Shown in pieces: positions 1-7,810 of a stretch of 7,810 bases of DNA (its first letter is position 1; each line of letters starts with the position of its first letter). The notes under the pieces are model-generated. The model ran no database searches, was not told the DNA's origin, and saw nothing but the letters and a program-made list of their open reading frames with translations. A program made the position numbers and the translations under genes. Origin of the DNA: Promethearchaeota archaeon. GTDB lineage: Archaea; Asgardarchaeota; Lokiarchaeia; Sigynarchaeales; SOKP01. The DNA lies in NCBI GenBank assembly GCA_016839845.1, contig JAEOTL010000233.1, positions 1-7,810 on the forward strand. Reading direction: 5' to 3'.

Positions 1-1266
1 AGCAAGACAAAGATGAGTTAAATTCTTAAGATTTGAAATCTCGGAGGGGAACTCTGATAAACCTAAATTAAATAGTGATAAGAGAATAATCTCCCCATTT
101 AAAGCTATATAATGACAAGGAAATTTATTAACAGGAAATTCCATATCAGGATTTACCCATGGAATTTTACCAAGATTAGCTTTATTTGTTTCTTCTTCGA
201 GATCAGCAGTAATTCTCTCAATTTCCTTTCCAAGTTGCTTTTCTAATGCTTCAAGCACTTTTTTCTCCTCAGGATTAAGTGGCTTATTCACCTGGGTAGC
301 TAATTGCATTAATAATGGATTTGTTTTTATTTGGAACATCTTATTTCGTTCTAATATTTGTTTTTCGCTGTGATATTCGTCTGAAATTCTCCTTTTTAAA
401 AGCTTTTCTATAAACCCTGTGTCTTCATTTACTTTGGTGAACATATATTTTTTATGGGGAAGTTCTCGGCGGGATGGAATAGATCCCATAGCTACTCTTT
501 TGAGAGTATTCATCACCAGGGAAAAATTTCCTCCAAGATCTTTTGCTTTAGCGAAAATATAAGCTGAATCTTCAGTTAATTTCCTCTTTAAACCTAACAT
601 AAATTTAATTTTTTCTTGATCTTCCCCTGTTGAAGGAATTTCTTCAATTTTCTGCACACCTATTAAGTGCTTAACTGACATATCTCTGATATTATATTTT
701 GTATTTTGAAACTCAAATTCTTTTACCCTACGAGAGCGTTTGTTTTCCGTCTCATACCATGGAGTACTGTTTTTCCACTGATCATTCATATTTTTCCAGT
801 TCTCTATTAAATTTTGGATCCCTTCTGTAGATCCCCATCGATCAGATTTGTAAAGTACCTCATTTTCCCATAAGAGTAACATAGCCTCGATATTAGGATC
901 TAATTCTAACAGTTCTGGGATTATCTCCTTCACATTATCTAAATATTTTAAATCTCTTCTTCTGTTTGATGTTTGATTTTTAAAATGGTCTCTTAGAATG
1001 TTTAAGAAAGCATCAGAATAGTCCTCCCAAATATCTGCTTCAATTTGTTCATTCAAATACTCAAACCAAAACTTTGGTAATGAAACAACTAATTTTTGTC
1101 TATTTTTTTTACTTTCACTTTTAAGCATTTTTCTCCAACGCGCTAAAGTAGGTTCTGATATCCCAAACTTTTCACATGTATCTTTATATGTGTGGGTTTC
1201 TAAATAATTAAGGATCTCTTTCTTTTCTATGAATGAATATCTTCGCCCATAATTTCTCTCACTCAT
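1..1266 (-). CDS. HTH-RHH-LRR protein, 3'-truncated by window edge (paralogue of the gene at 1371-3137)
   Basis: An uninterrupted frame of 422 codons runs from the ATG at 1266 to the left edge without a stop, so the C-terminus is outside the window. Residues 8-48 form a helix-turn-helix of the transposase/Psq-like kind (GRRYSF..KK, then SEPTLARWRK). Residues 58-96 (KLVVSLPKFW...EDYSDAFLNILRDH) match the beta-strand plus two-helix pattern of ribbon-helix-helix (RHH) repressors. Residues 100-330 are charged, largely helical-looking and not recognised. From about 334 (VLEALEKQLGKEIERIT) an LRR lead-in begins, with a first repeat near 394-416 (IILLSLFNLGLSEFPSEISNL) and a second starting at the edge. 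The first 96 residues are 71/96 identical to the upstream paralogue, with no gaps (hand count). The middle is about 50 residues shorter than in the paralogue. No Shine-Dalgarno is visible; the start is supported by the conserved MSER N-terminus and by promoter spacing. A DNA-binding regulator with an LRR interaction module is inferred; the function is unknown. Confidence 0.85.
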   Translation of the reverse strand, partial: MSERNYGRRYSFIEKKEILNYLETHTYKDTCEKFGISEPTLARWRKMLKSESKKNRQKLVVSLPKFWFEYLNEQIEADIWEDYSDAFLNILRDHFKNQTSNRRRDLKYLDNVKEIIPELLELDPNIEAMLLLWENEVLYKSDRWGSTEGIQNLIENWKNMNDQWKNSTPWYETENKRSRRVKEFEFQNTKYNIRDMSVKHLIGVQKIEEIPSTGEDQEKIKFMLGLKRKLTEDSAYIFAKAKDLGGNFSLVMNTLKRVAMGSIPSRRELPHKKYMFTKVNEDTGFIEKLLKRRISDEYHSEKQILERNKMFQIKTNPLLMQLATQVNKPLNPEEKKVLEALEKQLGKEIERITADLEEETNKANLGKIPWVNPDMEFPVNKFPCHYIALNGEIILLSLFNLGLSEFPSEISNLKNLTHLCLA

Positions 1267-1283: not shown

Positions 1284-1303
1284 GTAAGTATTTAAATACT
1301 TAC
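1284..1303 (-). promoter_or_regulatory. Palindromic TATA box/operator upstream of the truncated LRR gene
   Basis: GTAAGTATTTAAATACTTAC is a perfect 20-bp palindrome ending 17 bp before the ATG at 1266. Its centre, TATTTAAATA, is a good archaeal TATA box about 27 bp from the ATG, which is the usual TATA-to-start-site distance, so transcription probably begins at the ATG (leaderless). A further GTAAGTA half-site lies at 1316-1322. The block 1284-1320 aligns with 3155-3190 in front of the paralogue. Palindromy over the TATA box suggests a repressor site; the binding protein is not known. Confidence 0.7.
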
Positions 1304-1370: not shown

Positions 1371-3137
1371 CTAATCGATGACGAAATAGAGGTACCTATG
1401 CATATTTAACAAAGATTTTTGTTCCAATTCTAATTGCTCCTGTGATAATGAGCTACGATCAATCGGATTTCCAGAGAAAATTAAATTACCGGGAGGAAAA
1501 TTTGGATCCCCAATACGGGCTTGCCAGGTTTCAGTTAAAGTAATAGGGATTTTGGAAATTTGATTGTTTCTCATATAAAGGTTTTGTAATCTAGGTAAAT
1601 CAATAAGAATATCCGGAACCTTAATGAATTGATTATTATTTAGAAAGAGATTTTGTAAAGATTTTGTGTTAGAAAATGATTTTGGTAGTTCAGATATATT
1701 ATTTGAATTACAATTGAGATAAGTTAAACTTTTGAGATTTAAAATTTCGGATGGAATATCTGATAGACCAAAATTCAATAACGTCAAGAGGATTATCTTT
1801 CCATTTGAGGCTATATAATGACAAGAAAATAAATTTGCTGGGAAATTTACATTAGCGTGCATCCATGGTAATTTTTGGTACGATCTTCTTTGAACTAGTT
1901 TTGCATTTTGATTTGGCATTAGATCATTTCTAGATATTTCTTGTTCAGGATCGGCTGTAATCCTCTCGATTTTCTTCCCAATTTGTTTTTCTAATGCTTC
2001 AAGCACTTTTCCCTCCTCAGATTCAAGTGGAATATTCACTCGAGTAGCTACCCGCATCAAAACGGGATAGGTTAATATTTTAAACTTTCTTTCCTTTTCT
2101 TTTTCCCAATTTACTTTAGATTCTTTTAGATAATTCTTTGTTCTTTTTAATCCCTTATTTTCGACTATATCTTCCCCATATTTTTCTCTTATTCGTGAAT
2201 TAAGACGATCTAGTCCTGTAGTTTGCTCTTTTATGATGATTTGTGGGTCTTCCCTAATGATTTCCTGCGTCTTTTCAATATATTCTTTTCTTCTTTGCAA
2301 TATAGTTTCTAATTCATTTGATGGCATATCTGTGGACGATTTTAATGATTTTCCAACAATTGGTTCACTAACGGGTGGAAGGACACCCATTGCGGCTCTT
2401 TTAAGAGTGTCCATTGCCAAGAACAATGAATTATCCCCAATTTCTTCTGCTTTAGCTAAGATATATACATCATTTTCGGTTAATTTTCTCTTCAATGCTA
2501 ATAGAAGACTGGATTTTTGGCTTTTTTTCACTCCAACTAGGTGTTTTGCTGAAATGTCTCTAATGTGGTATATTTCATTTTGAAATTCGAAGCTCTTTAG
2601 ATTTTGTTTTCTTAGGTTATCTAGTTCTTTGTCCTTATACCAATAGTGTTTTTTCACATTAATTAAACATTTTTTCCAGCTCTTTATCAAATTAGATATA
2701 CCCTTTGTTGATTCCCATCGTTCAGTTTTATAAATTACGTCGTTAGTGCTAAAAAGCAACATGGAATCAATATTAGGATTAAGGTTTACTAGACTTGGAA
2801 GGATCTCTTTTGCACGTTCTAAATAGTTTGAATCAGCATCCTTAGCTAATTTTATATAGTCTCGGATGATTGTTAATATGGCATCAGAATAATCTTCCCA
2901 TACGTCTGCTTCAATTTGTTCATTCAAATATTCAAGCCAAAACTTTGGGAGAGAGATAATTATTTTTGTCCTATTATATTTACTCCCACTTTTGATCTCT
3001 TTTCTCCATCTTGATAAGGTAGTTTCTGATATACTAAACTTCTCACTTGTATCTTTGTATGTGTGTTTTTCCAAATAGTCAAGTATATCTTTCTTTTCTT
3101 TGAATGAATATCTTCGCCCATGTTTTCTCTCACTCAT
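1371..3137 (-). CDS. HTH-RHH-LRR protein, putative DNA-binding regulator (complete, 588 aa)
   Basis: Complete gene with ATG start and TAG stop. Domains seen: helix-turn-helix at about 8-48 (RRYSFKEKKDIL, then SETTLSRWRKE); ribbon-helix-helix-like segment at about 58-96 (KIIISLPKFW, then YSDAILTIIRDYIK); an unrecognised middle at 100-255; a highly charged, probably helical insert at about 265-350 that is much longer than in the neighbour; an LRR lead-in at 377-395 (VLEALEKQIGKKIERIT); and three to four 23-residue LRRs at about 447-538 (LTYLNCNSNNISELPKSF, LQNLFLNNNQFIKVP, LQNLYMRNNQISKIP). A cap-like end reads LIFSGNPI. There is no signal peptide or membrane segment, so a cytoplasmic DNA-associated protein is likely. 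It lies 104 bp upstream of its paralogue on the same strand. Known of the families: these HTH and RHH folds bind DNA and LRRs bind proteins. The combined role, regulator or domesticated transposase-derived factor, is inference. Confidence 0.9.
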   Translation of the reverse strand: MSERKHGRRYSFKEKKDILDYLEKHTYKDTSEKFSISETTLSRWRKEIKSGSKYNRTKIIISLPKFWLEYLNEQIEADVWEDYSDAILTIIRDYIKLAKDADSNYLERAKEILPSLVNLNPNIDSMLLFSTNDVIYKTERWESTKGISNLIKSWKKCLINVKKHYWYKDKELDNLRKQNLKSFEFQNEIYHIRDISAKHLVGVKKSQKSSLLLALKRKLTENDVYILAKAEEIGDNSLFLAMDTLKRAAMGVLPPVSEPIVGKSLKSSTDMPSNELETILQRRKEYIEKTQEIIREDPQIIIKEQTTGLDRLNSRIREKYGEDIVENKGLKRTKNYLKESKVNWEKEKERKFKILTYPVLMRVATRVNIPLESEEGKVLEALEKQIGKKIERITADPEQEISRNDLMPNQNAKLVQRRSYQKLPWMHANVNFPANLFSCHYIASNGKIILLTLLNFGLSDIPSEILNLKSLTYLNCNSNNISELPKSFSNTKSLQNLFLNNNQFIKVPDILIDLPRLQNLYMRNNQISKIPITLTETWQARIGDPNFPPGNLIFSGNPIDRSSLSQEQLELEQKSLLNMHRYLYFVID

Positions 3138-3154: not shown

Positions 3155-3174
3155 GTGCGTATTTAAATATTTAC
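3155..3174 (-). promoter_or_regulatory. TATA box/imperfect palindrome upstream of the complete LRR gene
   Basis: GTGCGTATTTAAATATTTAC matches the element at 1284-1303 at 17 of 20 positions and lies at exactly the same distance (17 bp) from its ATG at 3137. The inner TATTTAAATA (3160-3169) is a perfect palindrome and a plausible archaeal TATA box about 27 bp from the ATG, again implying a leaderless message. Similarity continues outward to about 3190 (ACTC..AACT.AGTG.AAG, read on the + strand). Confidence 0.65.
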
Positions 3175-3365: not shown

Positions 3366-4418
3366 ATGGTATTAGAAACAAATATTACTAAAATGTTAGG
3401 GATTAAACACCCTATTATTGCCGCTCCAATGGGCCCATTCTACACAACTGACTTGACCATAGCAGTTTCAGAAGCAGGCGGTCTTGGTGTGTTAAGCCAT
3501 AGCGCTTTAATAAGTGATTATCAGGCAGGAAAGAGTCCAGTTAACATATTGAAAGAAAATATGTTAAAAGTGGTTGAGCATACTGATAAACCATTTGGTT
3601 TTAATATAAGGACTTCCCGAAGAGAAGTAGGTGCTGCACAACTAGTCACAGAAATTCCCAAGTTCATTATGGAAAATCAGAGGGTAAAGGAACAATGTGT
3701 GTATGCTATCACTAGCGCAGGATCTTCCAAAACATTACCAATGTCAAAGGATTACCAAAAATTGAAAGAAAGTGGTTCACAAATTAAGCATTTTCATGTA
3801 GCACCAGCTTTATGGCTTGCTGATAAGTGTGTTGCCTCGAATGTTGATGGATTGGTTGTTACTGGAGGAGAAGGTGGAGGACATCAATCATATGAAAAAG
3901 TTAGTACCTTAGTTTTGTTGCAACAAGTTGCACAAAAACATCCAAACATTCCAATAGTAGCTTGTGGTGGCTTTGCAACAGGAGAAGGTCTTGCTGCTGC
4001 GTTAGCTATGGGTGCTGGAGCCGTTGCAATGGGTTCTAGATTTATTGCCTCAAAAGATAGTGAGTTTTCACAAGAATATAAGGAGATCGTTCCTCCTGCG
4101 AAAGCTCAAGATACAATATTGGTAACAGGTGCTTTAGGTCCGATTCGTTTATGGAAAAATGAGTATTCATTACATCATGGACTTGTTGCCGATAAAGAAT
4201 CAAAAATGGCTGAAGAAGCAGCAATGACAGAGCAGGACTTTATTAAGGAAGGAATGGCTTATGAAGCAGCCTATAAAGGAGACACAACTTCTGGCGCTGT
4301 CTTATTAGGTCAAAGCATTGGAGTTATTAAGAGCCTTGAAAATGTCAAGACTATTATTGATGATGTCGTTGGTGTCGCAGAAAAACGCCTAAAAAACGCT
4401 TATAATTTTTTAAAATAA
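3366..4418 (+). CDS. Nitronate monooxygenase / 2-nitropropane dioxygenase-family flavin oxidoreductase
   Basis: A 350-residue FMN-dependent TIM-barrel protein. Visible family marks are PIIAAPMGPF (16-25), EAGGLGVL (36-43), FGFNI (77-81), ITSAGSS (115-121), GGEGGGHQS (167-175) and the phosphate-binding stretch ACGGFATGEGLAAALAMGAG (199-218) followed by MGSRF. His173 sits where nitronate monooxygenases carry the catalytic base of their AGGH motif; here the motif reads GGGH. GQSIG (315-319) is the usual late glycine-containing loop. Length is normal for the family. Members oxidise alkyl nitronates, while relatives include FabK-type enoyl-ACP reductases and uncharacterised NAD(P)H:flavin oxidoreductases, so the substrate cannot be fixed from sequence. 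A 3-hydroxyacyl-CoA dehydrogenase gene follows 77 bp downstream on the same strand, which makes an acyl-chain-related reaction plausible. The protein is probably cytoplasmic, since no signal peptide or membrane segment is seen. Confidence 0.88.
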   Translation: MVLETNITKMLGIKHPIIAAPMGPFYTTDLTIAVSEAGGLGVLSHSALISDYQAGKSPVNILKENMLKVVEHTDKPFGFNIRTSRREVGAAQLVTEIPKFIMENQRVKEQCVYAITSAGSSKTLPMSKDYQKLKESGSQIKHFHVAPALWLADKCVASNVDGLVVTGGEGGGHQSYEKVSTLVLLQQVAQKHPNIPIVACGGFATGEGLAAALAMGAGAVAMGSRFIASKDSEFSQEYKEIVPPAKAQDTILVTGALGPIRLWKNEYSLHHGLVADKESKMAEEAAMTEQDFIKEGMAYEAAYKGDTTSGAVLLGQSIGVIKSLENVKTIIDDVVGVAEKRLKNAYNFLK

Positions 4419-4428
4419 GCAAACCTTA

Positions 4429-4440
4429 TTTTTTTTTTTT
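4429..4440 (+). terminator. T12 tract after the flavin oxidoreductase gene
   Basis: An unbroken run of 12 T begins 10 bp after the stop codon, followed by G and more T-rich sequence (GTTTATTTTT). No stem precedes it. Archaeal RNA polymerase terminates at U-tracts without needing a hairpin, so this is a likely full or partial terminator before the next gene. Confidence 0.6.
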
Positions 4441-4495
4441 GTTTATTTTTAGTATTAACATAATTTCAAATAATCAAAGAATGAGAGTGTAAAAG

Positions 4496-5659
4496 ATGGA
4501 TGTGAAAAATATAGTTGTAATTGGAGTCGGGTTAATGGGTAATGGAATTGCTCAAGTTTCTTTAATGGCAGGATATAACGTAACACTTGTTGATATTAAA
4601 CAGGAATTCATCGATAGAGCTGTTGAAAACATTAAAGGTGGACTAACTAAACTTGAGTCAAAGGGAGTCTTAAATGCAGCAGAAACTATTGAACGAATGA
4701 AGACAAATTTAGATCTTGCTTCTGCGGTAAAAGATGCTGATCTAATCATAGAAGCTGTTGTTGAGGATATGGATGTGAAGAAAAATATTTTCAAAACATG
4801 TGATGATAACGCACCTCCTCATGCAGTAATTGCCTCAAATACTTCTACGATGTCTATAACGGAAATGGCGACAGCCACCAATAGACAGGATAAATGTATC
4901 GGGATGCATTTCTTCAATCCAGCTCCTTTAATGAGATTAATAGAGGTTATTGCTGGTGAAAAATCTTCTGAAGAAGCGATGGAAGTTGGTATGAAAGTAA
5001 GCGCAACTTTGCCTTGTCTTAGAGGTGACAGATATGTTGCAAAAGTCCTAAAAGATCGACCCGGTTTCATTGTGAATAGATTGAATGCTCCAGGTGGTAT
5101 CTATATGAATTATCTTCTTGATACATGCTTAGAGAAGGGAATTCCTTTTGAGTCATTAGATGCTGATTTTGGGAGTCGTGGACCGATGTCTCCATTAGTA
5201 TTAGCCGATTATACGGGAATCGATACGGGATATCATGTTCGAAATTATTATGCTGATACATTGCATGAAGACTTCAGACCCGGGAAAGTAGTCACAAAAA
5301 TGTTTAATGAAGGAAAATTAGGTAGAAAATCTGGACAAGGATATTATGATTGGACTAAGGGAAGACCACAACCGGACTTCTCTAAAATTGAAAAAGCAGG
5401 ATTAGTAAATGGAGGAGTTTTTCTAGCCATTAGCTTAAATGAGGGATGCAGGATCTTAGAAGAAGGTATTGCTTCTGGATGGAAAGTAATTGACGATGCA
5501 AATATGGCTGGTATGAATGCTCCAGGACCTTTCGAACGAGGGATTCAAAATTGGGAAGGATTAGTTAAATTATTAGAAGAATACTCTGAAAAACTCGGAA
5601 AGGAATATCTTAAACCATGCGATTTGTTTAAGAGCGGAAAATTTGTAGATATGAAATAG
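4496..5659 (+). CDS. 3-hydroxyacyl-CoA dehydrogenase (NAD-dependent)
   Basis: 387 residues. The product oxidises (S)-3-hydroxyacyl-CoA to 3-oxoacyl-CoA with NAD+, the third step of beta-oxidation, or runs in reverse in butyrate/crotonyl-type routes. The N-terminal Rossmann fold starts at once (IVVIGVGLMGNGIA, 6-19), and Asp33 ends the second strand, as expected for NAD preference. Catalytic residues by family alignment are Ser117 (SNTS), His138 (GMHFFNP), Glu150 (LIEVI) and Asn194 (GFIVNR). The Ser-His and His-Glu spacings of 21 and 12 equal those of human SCHAD. The helical C-terminal domain covers about 188-285 (KLGRKSGQGYYDW), and a second, shorter copy fills 300-380. No enoyl-CoA hydratase is fused, so it is a stand-alone enzyme. 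The start fits because the first beta-strand follows directly; GAGAG-like bases 8 nt before the ATG could be a weak ribosome site. It lies between the flavin oxidoreductase and the metallo-hydrolase on the same strand. Confidence 0.95.
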   Translation: MDVKNIVVIGVGLMGNGIAQVSLMAGYNVTLVDIKQEFIDRAVENIKGGLTKLESKGVLNAAETIERMKTNLDLASAVKDADLIIEAVVEDMDVKKNIFKTCDDNAPPHAVIASNTSTMSITEMATATNRQDKCIGMHFFNPAPLMRLIEVIAGEKSSEEAMEVGMKVSATLPCLRGDRYVAKVLKDRPGFIVNRLNAPGGIYMNYLLDTCLEKGIPFESLDADFGSRGPMSPLVLADYTGIDTGYHVRNYYADTLHEDFRPGKVVTKMFNEGKLGRKSGQGYYDWTKGRPQPDFSKIEKAGLVNGGVFLAISLNEGCRILEEGIASGWKVIDDANMAGMNAPGPFERGIQNWEGLVKLLEEYSEKLGKEYLKPCDLFKSGKFVDMK

Positions 5660-5672
5660 TTTTTATATTTCC

Positions 5673-5683
5673 TTTTTTTTTTT
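5673..5683 (+). terminator. T11 tract after the 3-hydroxyacyl-CoA dehydrogenase gene
   Basis: A run of 11 T lies 13 bp after the TAG stop and within the short gap before the next gene, with no stem in front. As an archaeal U-tract it is a likely terminator or attenuation point. The preceding TTTATATTT (about 5662-5670) could also serve as a TATA box for the next gene, but that is weak. Confidence 0.55.
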
Positions 5684-5710
5684 ATTACATCAGATATTTT
5701 GGTTTTAAAA

Positions 5711-6934
5711 ATGTCAAAAGAGAATAATGATCAATCAGATAAAGTTGATCCTATAAATGTATATACTCTTCAGCCAACATTTGATACTCCAATCAAGGAT
5801 GTAGGTACTGCAATAGCCCCTCTTTCTTCATGTGGATGGATTCATACAACAGAAGGAGTGGTTTTAATCGATACCTTAATCTCTAGAAGAGTGGCCAAAC
5901 AAGTGAAGGAACTAATAAAAGATAAAATTAAATATATAATCTATACGCATGGTCATATCGACCATGTGCGTGGAACTAATGTCTTCATGGATGATAAACC
6001 CGAAATTATTGCAAGCAAGTATTTAGTAGATCGTTTTGATAAATATCAGATGTTAGCACCCCATAAAGCTCGTTATGACGCACAACAATTTGGAGGTCTA
6101 GAAGTCATACCGGAATTCGATTTAATTTATCCAACAAAAACTTTCTTTGGGGATATGACAATTACTTTAGGGGATAAAACGTTTGAGCTCCACACAGCAC
6201 GAGCAGAAACTGATGATGCAGTATGGGTATATGTTCCAGAACTAAATGCTGCTTTCATTGGAGATTTAATGATTGGAAGCTTTCCTAATATCGGGAATCC
6301 GTGGAAACCGACCCGCTTTGCTTTAGATTGGGCAAAAGAATTAGAAAGAATAAGAGAATTAAAACCGGAATATATTTTTTATGGTGGAGGTGGGACATTA
6401 CTTAAAGGTGTAGAGGCTATGAAAGCAATTAACGATCATATAGAAGTTATTCGCGCCTTACATGATCAGGTAGTCGATCATATCAATAAAGGTACCCATA
6501 TTACCGAAATGATTCATGAAGTAAAAATACCTGAACACTTAAAAAAAAGCCCTTATCTTCGAGCGAGTTATTCTCGAACTGAATTTTTCGTATTTAATGT
6601 TTATCGGTGGTATCATGGTTATTTTGACGATAATCCGGCACATCTCTTACCAAGACCTCAAAAAGAAGTTATGGGTGAGATATTTAGCCTAATTGGGGGC
6701 TCTAATACCATTCTAAAGAGATCACAAGAACTTTTAGATAATAATCAAGCACAGTTAGCATTAGAAGTCTTAGATGTGTTAATTCAAGCAGATCTTGAAG
6801 ATATCGAAGCACGGAAAATGAGGATTAAACTCCTTAAAAATATTGGTAAGGATGATTTTAGTTTAATGTCTCGAAATGCGTGGGTGTACTTTATTAATAA
6901 AGATAAAGAATTTATCAAGTCAAGAGAAAAGTAG
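5711..6934 (+). CDS. Alkyl-sulfatase-like metallo-beta-lactamase-fold hydrolase
   Basis: 407 residues from the ATG at 5711. An in-frame TTG at 5699 would add four residues, but ATG is the better start. The metal motif THGHIDH (79-85: His80, His82, Asp84, His85) is intact. Glu166 (HTARAETDD) and Asp185 (FIGD) sit where alkyl sulfatases and other MBL enzymes have the next ligands. The late metal-binding His, normally in a PGHG- or SH-type turn, appears to be Gly: the turn reads FYGGGGT (223-229). Residues 255-395 are the alkyl-sulfatase dimerisation domain, marked by VYRWYHGYFDDNPAHL and a helical repeat-like tail. The C-terminal sterol-carrier domain of SdsA1-type enzymes is missing. Alkyl sulfatases cleave sulfate esters, but substrate and activity here are unproven. 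There is no signal peptide, so it is probably cytoplasmic. It follows the dehydrogenase by 51 bp. Confidence 0.88.
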   Translation: MSKENNDQSDKVDPINVYTLQPTFDTPIKDVGTAIAPLSSCGWIHTTEGVVLIDTLISRRVAKQVKELIKDKIKYIIYTHGHIDHVRGTNVFMDDKPEIIASKYLVDRFDKYQMLAPHKARYDAQQFGGLEVIPEFDLIYPTKTFFGDMTITLGDKTFELHTARAETDDAVWVYVPELNAAFIGDLMIGSFPNIGNPWKPTRFALDWAKELERIRELKPEYIFYGGGGTLLKGVEAMKAINDHIEVIRALHDQVVDHINKGTHITEMIHEVKIPEHLKKSPYLRASYSRTEFFVFNVYRWYHGYFDDNPAHLLPRPQKEVMGEIFSLIGGSNTILKRSQELLDNNQAQLALEVLDVLIQADLEDIEARKMRIKLLKNIGKDDFSLMSRNAWVYFINKDKEFIKSREK

Positions 6935-7022: not shown

Positions 7023-7810
7023 TTATGACAGTGGTTTTTTCTTATGTAAAATAGTATTTCCTAAGTCTAGATAAATATTTTGTGGACTTTCAACTTTGAA
7101 TTCAACCGGGATTGGTTGATCAAGTAAAGCTGGATTGGGCATGAAGAATTGAAAATTCTCGATGTTATCAAGGATTAAAGGCATTTTATTTTCACCTGGA
7201 ACCTCCTTAAAGTAAAACACCCCTAATTCTCTTGAAATTTCAACACGCATGAATCCTTTATAAGACTCATATAAACCCGTCAACATCGTAAGGTTTTGAG
7301 CCGATTTTGTAATAGGAAAATACTTTGTTGGATCTTCGCCCAACATTGCAGTTAATATTAAATGCACTATGAGTTCTAATTGTGCGTAATTAGCTGTATT
7401 ACTAGTAATAGCAATACCTATATTTTTATCCGGGATAAACGCAAGACGTGCCGCAGATACTACAATGGCACCTGTATGTGAAATCAATTTATGCCCATAA
7501 TAATTTTCCTCAATAGACCATCCATATCCATATCCAAACTTACCTTCTTTTAAATTTGAGGGACGTTCGATTTGTATTTTGAGCATTTCATTTAATAATG
7601 ATTCATTTAAAATCTGTTTTTCTTCAAATAAACCGTTGTTTAAATATAATGAAAGATAATTTGTTAATTCCTTAACCGAACTTAATAATCCCATCGGGGG
7701 ATAAAAGAATTTACTAAATGGAATGCTTGATTTTTTATTGTCTGCAAAACTCAGATAGGCTGTCATAGTATCTTCATCATTTTCGAATTCTTCCTTTAAA
7801 AAAGTAGATC
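7023..7810 (-). CDS. Beta-lactamase-family serine hydrolase, C-terminal part (5' end off the window)
   Basis: The frame stays open to the right edge, giving 261 visible residues and a TAA stop. An internal ATG at 7766 exists, but the family needs far more N-terminal sequence, so the real start is outside. Visible marks are GLLSSVKELTNYLSLYLNNG, GYGYGWSIEE, and HTG at 7470-7478, which is the third active-site motif of class C beta-lactamase/EstB-type enzymes (KTG in beta-lactamases). RLAFIPDKNIGIAITSN follows, then a beta-rich C-terminal extension (LTGLYESYKGFMRVEIS) like the small domain trailing many such esterases. The catalytic SxxK and YxN motifs are not in the window. Members hydrolyse esters, peptides or beta-lactams; most archaeal ones are uncharacterised. 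The gene is convergent with the metallo-hydrolase and has no obvious functional tie to it. Confidence 0.85.
   Translation of the reverse strand, partial: STFLKEEFENDEDTMTAYLSFADNKKSSIPFSKFFYPPMGLLSSVKELTNYLSLYLNNGLFEEKQILNESLLNEMLKIQIERPSNLKEGKFGYGYGWSIEENYYGHKLISHTGAIVVSAARLAFIPDKNIGIAITSNTANYAQLELIVHLILTAMLGEDPTKYFPITKSAQNLTMLTGLYESYKGFMRVEISRELGVFYFKEVPGENKMPLILDNIENFQFFMPNPALLDQPIPVEFKVESPQNIYLDLGNTILHKKKPLS

Follow-up and report, generated by a model that had tools for sequence, protein, structure and literature searches.

The window, that is, the whole stretch of 7,810 nucleotides that was analysed, carries an intact ORF for a 588-amino acid protein (hereafter P0001), which runs on the minus strand from an ATG to a stop codon (1371-3137), and a related gene in tandem with it. 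The features of the two genes are as follows.

1..1266, minus strand: tandem paralogue of P0001, 47% identical to it, with the same domain order up to the start of the leucine-rich repeats (LRRs).
1284..1303, no strand: perfect 20-bp palindrome GTAAGTATTTAAATACTTAC, containing TTTAAATA, 17 bp upstream of the paralogue ATG.
1371..3137, minus strand: complete ORF of P0001, with the domain order HTH, ribbon-helix-helix (RHH), profilin-type domain, helical linker, LRR, drawn from the ORF and its homologues.
1374..2072, minus strand: LRR module at residues about 356-588, capped at its N-terminus; the canonical repeats lie at about 449-545.
2073..2381, minus strand: variable, mostly helical linker, residues 253-355; low to medium pLDDT in AF2 and gap-rich in alignment A1.
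2382..2834, minus strand: predicted profilin-type domain at residues 102-252, with an N- and a C-terminal helix flanking seven strands.
2844..2969, minus strand: predicted RHH, residues 57-98; from hhalign to NikR/CopG and the AF2 helices 65-76 and 83-103.
2985..3116, minus strand: transposase-like tri-helical HTH, residues 8-51; from AF2 helices and HTH_28/HTH_23 matches.
3159..3174, minus strand: the same motif as upstream of the paralogue, here as GTAAATATTTAAATAC, 21 bp upstream of the P0001 ATG.

The paralogue is truncated by the window edge after 422 amino acids, inside the start of its LRR. An earlier note had described the ORF as a fusion of HTH, RHH, and LRR; the ORF is real and has all three parts, but the note gave neither the strand nor the profilin-type domain (residues 102-252), nor did it mention the paralogue in tandem (1-1266). 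The intactness of the ORF, its domain order, the RHH and profilin relationships, the conservation of the family, the tandem pair, and the shared promoter motif are computed results. Three metabolic genes lie at 3366-6934 on the plus strand, opposite to P0001, namely, a nitronate monooxygenase-like gene (3366-4418), a 3-hydroxyacyl-CoA dehydrogenase gene (4496-5659), and a gene for a metallo-beta-lactamase fold with an alkyl-sulfatase dimerisation domain (5699-6934). A gene on the minus strand (7023-7808), truncated by the window edge, encodes a hydrolase of the serine beta-lactamase type, which also matches Pab87 octamerisation weakly.

Three protein searches yielded 41 relatives of P0001 (30, then 9 and 2 new ones); in the first two, which gave 30 and 9, scoring was limited to the roughly 8,000 candidates with the most words in common. 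Down to 40% identity, the relatives align over residues 1-440, and the complete ones align into the LRR. Organism names were available for 10 of the 41 (eight Promethearchaeota, one Candidatus Hodarchaeota, and one "archaeon"). The nearest relative, P0002, is 98% identical to P0001 and is named Promethearchaeota archaeon, which supports the Lokiarchaeota-type origin supposed earlier. The tandem pair is probably also present at P0002, as this protein and the partial member P0034 are each found on a 5334-base contig. A regular expression search for the same architecture found the HTH, the RHH, the profilin-type domain motif RD[ILM]S[VAI]KHL, and at least two LRR motifs in 24 of the 42 family proteins including P0001, and 16 of the 18 proteins without the full set are shorter than 440 amino acids; the fusion thus recurs in relatives, as the earlier note had proposed to check.

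The longest well-conserved stretches of the family are the HTH and the RHH (mean majority residue over 32 rows, 0.84 and 0.80, respectively), and the profilin-type domain contains short stretches that are equally conserved by the same measure (W-loop, 0.81; b3, 0.82; b5, 0.84). Alignment A1 omits P0002, and A6 omits P0002, P0013, P0022, P0024, P0025, and P0040-P0042. P0037, at 27% identity, retains the HTH, the RHH, and the LRR, but its middle part has diverged, and P0038 (283 amino acids) and P0039 (282 amino acids) have the HTH, RHH, and middle domain without the LRR. This distribution suggests that the core of DNA-binding parts and middle domain predates its fusion to the LRR or that the LRR was lost from it; from the sequences, the family core looks like the DNA-binding pair plus the middle domain, and the LRR would be an addition or a loss.

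Several members differ individually. P0038, P0039, and P0041 are distant LRR-less relatives of the HTH-RHH-middle domain type, one of them a partial protein from Candidatus Hodarchaeota. P0024 has the family N-terminus (a partial HTH, the RHH, and a profilin-type part) followed by a piece of HcyBio (PF01837), either a gene fusion or an assembly error. P0026, on a 74.7-kb contig, is also LRR-less, its tail departing from the alignment where the LRR cap should begin, and it may be a frameshifted or shortened copy.

The N-terminal residues 8-48 had been read as a transposase/Psq-like HTH, and this reading was borne out. The second AF2 model places three helices at residues 12-24, 27-34, and 38-51, and a Pfam scan of 31 aligned members (E limit 5) matched HTH_28 in 26, HTH_23 in 26, and HTH_Tnp_1 in 25, with best E values of 4.6e-8 for HTH_28 and 1.2e-5 for HTH_23. 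The tandem paralogue scores above the Pfam gathering score for the HTH, and P0001 itself scores below it. PADLOC rows reached the P0001 N-terminus only at E 0.018-0.03.

The likeness of this HTH to those of transposases (HTH_Tnp_1 in Pfam, phrog_151 in PHROGs) is what a remnant or regulator of a mobile element would show, that is, a family that took up such an HTH, expanded within its lineage, and does not regulate anything in the cell. The tandem duplication is in keeping with such an origin, and so is a patchy occurrence: two scans of genome contigs gave 42 and 28 pattern matches and no confirmed relative, although these patterns were short exact peptides, for which absence is weak evidence. 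However, the Pfam table of P0001 contains no transposase or recombinase catalytic domain, the ORFs are long and intact, and the relatives P0026 and P0021 come from Promethearchaeota-named contigs as long as 74.7 kb and 185.9 kb, respectively. Nor was a relative confirmed among viruses: two scans of viral contigs with family queries gave 6 and 35 matches to short exact peptide patterns, again weak evidence, and tblastn of phages gave no match to the family. Viral-contig scans with a Loki profilin fragment and with E. coli NikR found nothing. We consider a mobile-element origin of this kind very unlikely.

For the RHH, claimed earlier for residues 58-96, the evidence comes from profile-profile comparison and the predicted structure. 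The RHH profile aligned by hhalign to a nine-sequence NikR/CopG reference over 38 columns with a probability of 85.7 and a score of 27.5, and 300 column-shuffled controls scored a median of 8.0 and a maximum of 18.6. When 36 segments of 48 residues along residues 1-258 were scanned against NikR/CopG, those starting at 49, 55, and 61 scored 25.7-28.3, that starting at 43 scored 21.4, and all the remaining ones scored 17.4 or less. Against a six-sequence NikR set, the probability was 88.4 for the RHH part and 74.9 for the full length. The RHH alignment (A7) comprised 13 of 34 distinct RHH segments and one from P0041. By contrast with the more sensitive hhalign, Pfam HMMs did not agree with the claim: single-sequence scans of 14 members to E 10 gave no Pfam RHH family, with PBD in three members (best E 0.071) and NAP in one. 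A profile search of the PDB (14 members, 48 positions) gave NikR 2bj1 weakly, at E 0.63 and third of nine rows, behind two unrelated ones.

The first AF2 model had low confidence in this region (block pLDDT 35-55), and the second reached 73-88 for residues 61-100, with residues 58-63 extended and followed by helices at 65-76 and 83-103. A helical bundle at residues 58-96 was thus not seen. The AF2 monomer has no strand at the start of the RHH, which is expected because the RHH strand pairs only in the dimer. We therefore accepted residues 57-98 as a predicted RHH, with profile-profile support and without a Pfam or significant PDB sequence match.

The C-terminal LRRs of the earlier note were confirmed by Pfam LRR_4 (E 2e-9) and by LRR rows at about residues 372-585 in the model. 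NCBIfam labels (Leptospira, XopAC, and internalin) and PHROGs rows on this part were set aside, as they rest on the LRR and not on family membership.

The 150 residues between the RHH and the linker are, by profile and model, a predicted profilin-type domain, and this assignment changes the leading functional idea. The predicted structure has the N- and C-terminal helices and the seven strands of the profilin fold. A profile of the middle domain retrieved profilins from the PDB at E 3.3e-5 and 8.8e-4, and after Loki fragments were added to the profile, Odin (E 4.1e-5) and Thor (E 0.033) profilins came next. By hhalign, the score to profilins was 42.9 versus 17.3, and 27.1 versus 19.5 without the Loki rows. 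The sequence match covers the first two-thirds of the domain (profile positions 7-93 of 141), and the last third rests on the predicted structure. By structure alone, eukaryotic profilins were tied with Asgard profilins. Alignment A8 comprised 11 of 30 non-redundant segments, hand-picked for diversity. Pfam PF00235 was absent from the P0001 families to E 5 and from 11 families of 11 isolated domains to E 10, a negative limited by HMMER filters that drop most matches above about 0.1; a genome search with PF00235 matched in 0 of 14 control genomes and is thus uninformative.

The best 50 VIA entries were profilins (including two chimeras with profilin) and roadblock-type domains. The profilins among them were identified by title or allergen name, and the list was filled by the profilin-type domain, so that the HTH and RHH parts were barely probed there. 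A roadblock/LC7-type middle domain, which would work with small GTPases together with the LRR, had been a candidate for residues 105-255 and was dropped, since both AF2 models have seven strands, profilin scores higher, and the sequence matches are to profilin only. Roadblock/LC7 is a five-strand sheet with a long central helix, as passages of PMC10933270 describe it. This reading, already disfavoured, is very unlikely.

A Foldseek search with the model placed IclR regulators at ranks 2 and 3 (E 1.4e-3 and 1.9e-3). These ranks would fit a one-component regulator in which the profilin fold senses a small molecule or lipid, like the GAF/PAS-type domains of IclR, with no link to actin, and an HTH with an alpha/beta sensor is a common layout. 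Asgard profilins also interact with PIP2, according to parts of PMC8410842. However, the superpositions on IclR were poor (TM 0.32-0.33, rmsd 17), no IclR appeared in the best 50 VIA entries, and the sequence match is to profilins; we judge such a sensor to be distinctly improbable.

The promoter motif bears on what the protein might bind. GTAARTATTTAAATAC has three matches at two places in the window (up to two mismatches were allowed, and all three are exact), one place before each gene; positions 1284-1303 count on both strands as a palindrome, and at 3159-3174 the motif is not a full palindrome. The expected number of matches is 0.06, and 0 of 200 shuffles had at least three. A perfect palindrome of at least 20 bp occurred in 11 of 500 order-1 Markov windows. 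By consensus, TTTAAATA is an archaeal TATA box; TTTAWATA occurs also at 2851 and 7639, both inside genes. The position of the motif fits a leaderless or nearly leaderless transcript. A scan of 1200-1420 for sigma-70 promoters and terminators found none, sigma-70 not being the archaeal promoter type. The regions upstream of the paralogue and P0001 are otherwise only partly alike. Shared ancestry of a duplicated promoter and a plain TATA box suffice to explain the motif, and the more interesting explanation, an operator for the protein itself, is putative and concerns two related genes only.

These results lead us to a reading that we hold to be somewhat more probable than its negation: P0001 would be a sequence-specific, dimeric Asgard DNA-binding protein, encoded by a tandem paralogue pair, with the profilin-type and LRR domains as its input or partner-binding side. 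From the folds, the HTH and RHH together would read DNA. RHH folds bind DNA as dimers, and pairing of the RHH would make P0001 a dimer. A partner, which could be monomeric actin, some other protein of the cytoskeleton, or a GTPase-type protein bound by the LRR, would change or localise DNA binding; a regulator recruiting partners through the LRR, as proposed earlier, is a plausible candidate role. One likely target would be its own promoter, through the TATA-like motif that precedes both genes and forms a palindrome before the paralogue; a dimer bound there could exclude TBP and bring about autoregulation. DNA binding, dimerisation, autoregulation, and the identity of the partner are what we infer here.

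In human cells, the profilin fold serves actin control. The fold by itself demonstrates no function, and actin binding is only a candidate. Actin is the obvious partner candidate, given that Asgard profilins are reported in parts of PMC9433394 and PMC8410842 to inhibit the nucleation of actin in vitro. The narrower proposal, in which actin monomers or some other partner of profilins bind to the profilin-type domain and the condition of the actin cytoskeleton determines where the protein binds DNA and which genes it controls, is possible but rather unlikely. The same combination of an RHH and an actin-regulator fold in a single chain could instead make a ParR-like adaptor, in which the RHH/HTH end grips a DNA site and actin is bound at the profilin-type end, so that actin monomers or filaments would move, anchor, or position DNA, and transcription would not be regulated. 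In the passages of PMC12270681, the RHH protein ParR serves as an adaptor and binds both parC and ParM, and Asgard profilins act on actin in vitro in those of PMC8410842 and PMC9433394. However, the 7.8-kb window has no iteron array (of its seven repeat rows, one is a T run and the others are short repeats with 1.9-2.8 copies each), and an actin or ParM-like gene is absent among the four neighbouring ORFs scanned. We count this adaptor role, like the ligand sensor, as a serious rival of the favoured reading, though a distinctly improbable one.

Under the favoured reading of a DNA-binding protein with a partner side, gene control or DNA handling could be tied to the cell skeleton by DNA-binding folds, a profilin-type domain, and LRRs. 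With an Asgard family in which two DNA-binding folds are fused to a profilin-type domain, it would seem that a eukaryotic-signature fold also served gene control or DNA handling, and cytoskeleton-to-genome signalling before eukaryotes would become directly testable. The actin-responsive proposal, if true, would mean that archaeal DNA is linked directly to the actin cytoskeleton, through a single chain that would be the counterpart, before eukaryotes, of actin-responsive transcription or of ParR-type adaptors.

P0001 is by kind a predicted multidomain DNA-binding protein, and what surprises is to find a profilin-type domain in such a protein. Among the literature matches listed (titles and abstract openings), no HTH/RHH-profilin-LRR protein was described, which is no proof of absence. 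Compared with the NikR/CopG-type regulators, with which P0001 has the beta-alpha-alpha motif in common over the 38 aligned columns, it lacks the NikR metal domain and a Pfam-level match, and its RHH follows an HTH in one chain. The LRR proteins Roco (Chlorobium tepidum) and SHOC-2/Leptospira differ from P0001, which has no Roc GTPase domain and has a DNA-binding N-terminus. The ParR of ParMRC (passages of PMC12270681) offers a functional analogy, in that P0001 too would be an RHH protein connecting DNA to filaments of the actin type; P0001 has additional HTH, profilin-type, and LRR domains, and neither iterons nor a ParM neighbour in the window. The Asgard profilins (LokiProfilin1/2, OdinProfilin, and ThorProfilin; PDB 5yed, 5yee, 5zzb, 5zza, and 7pbh) are a close known system. 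By contrast, the P0001 domain, known here from sequence and model, is 13-14% identical to them and is located behind two DNA-binding folds and before LRRs. In the eukaryotic case that links a DNA-binding factor to profilin, as excerpts of PMC6265261 present it, the two are separate proteins and the DNA-binding fold is Myb-related, whereas P0001 unites both parts in one chain.
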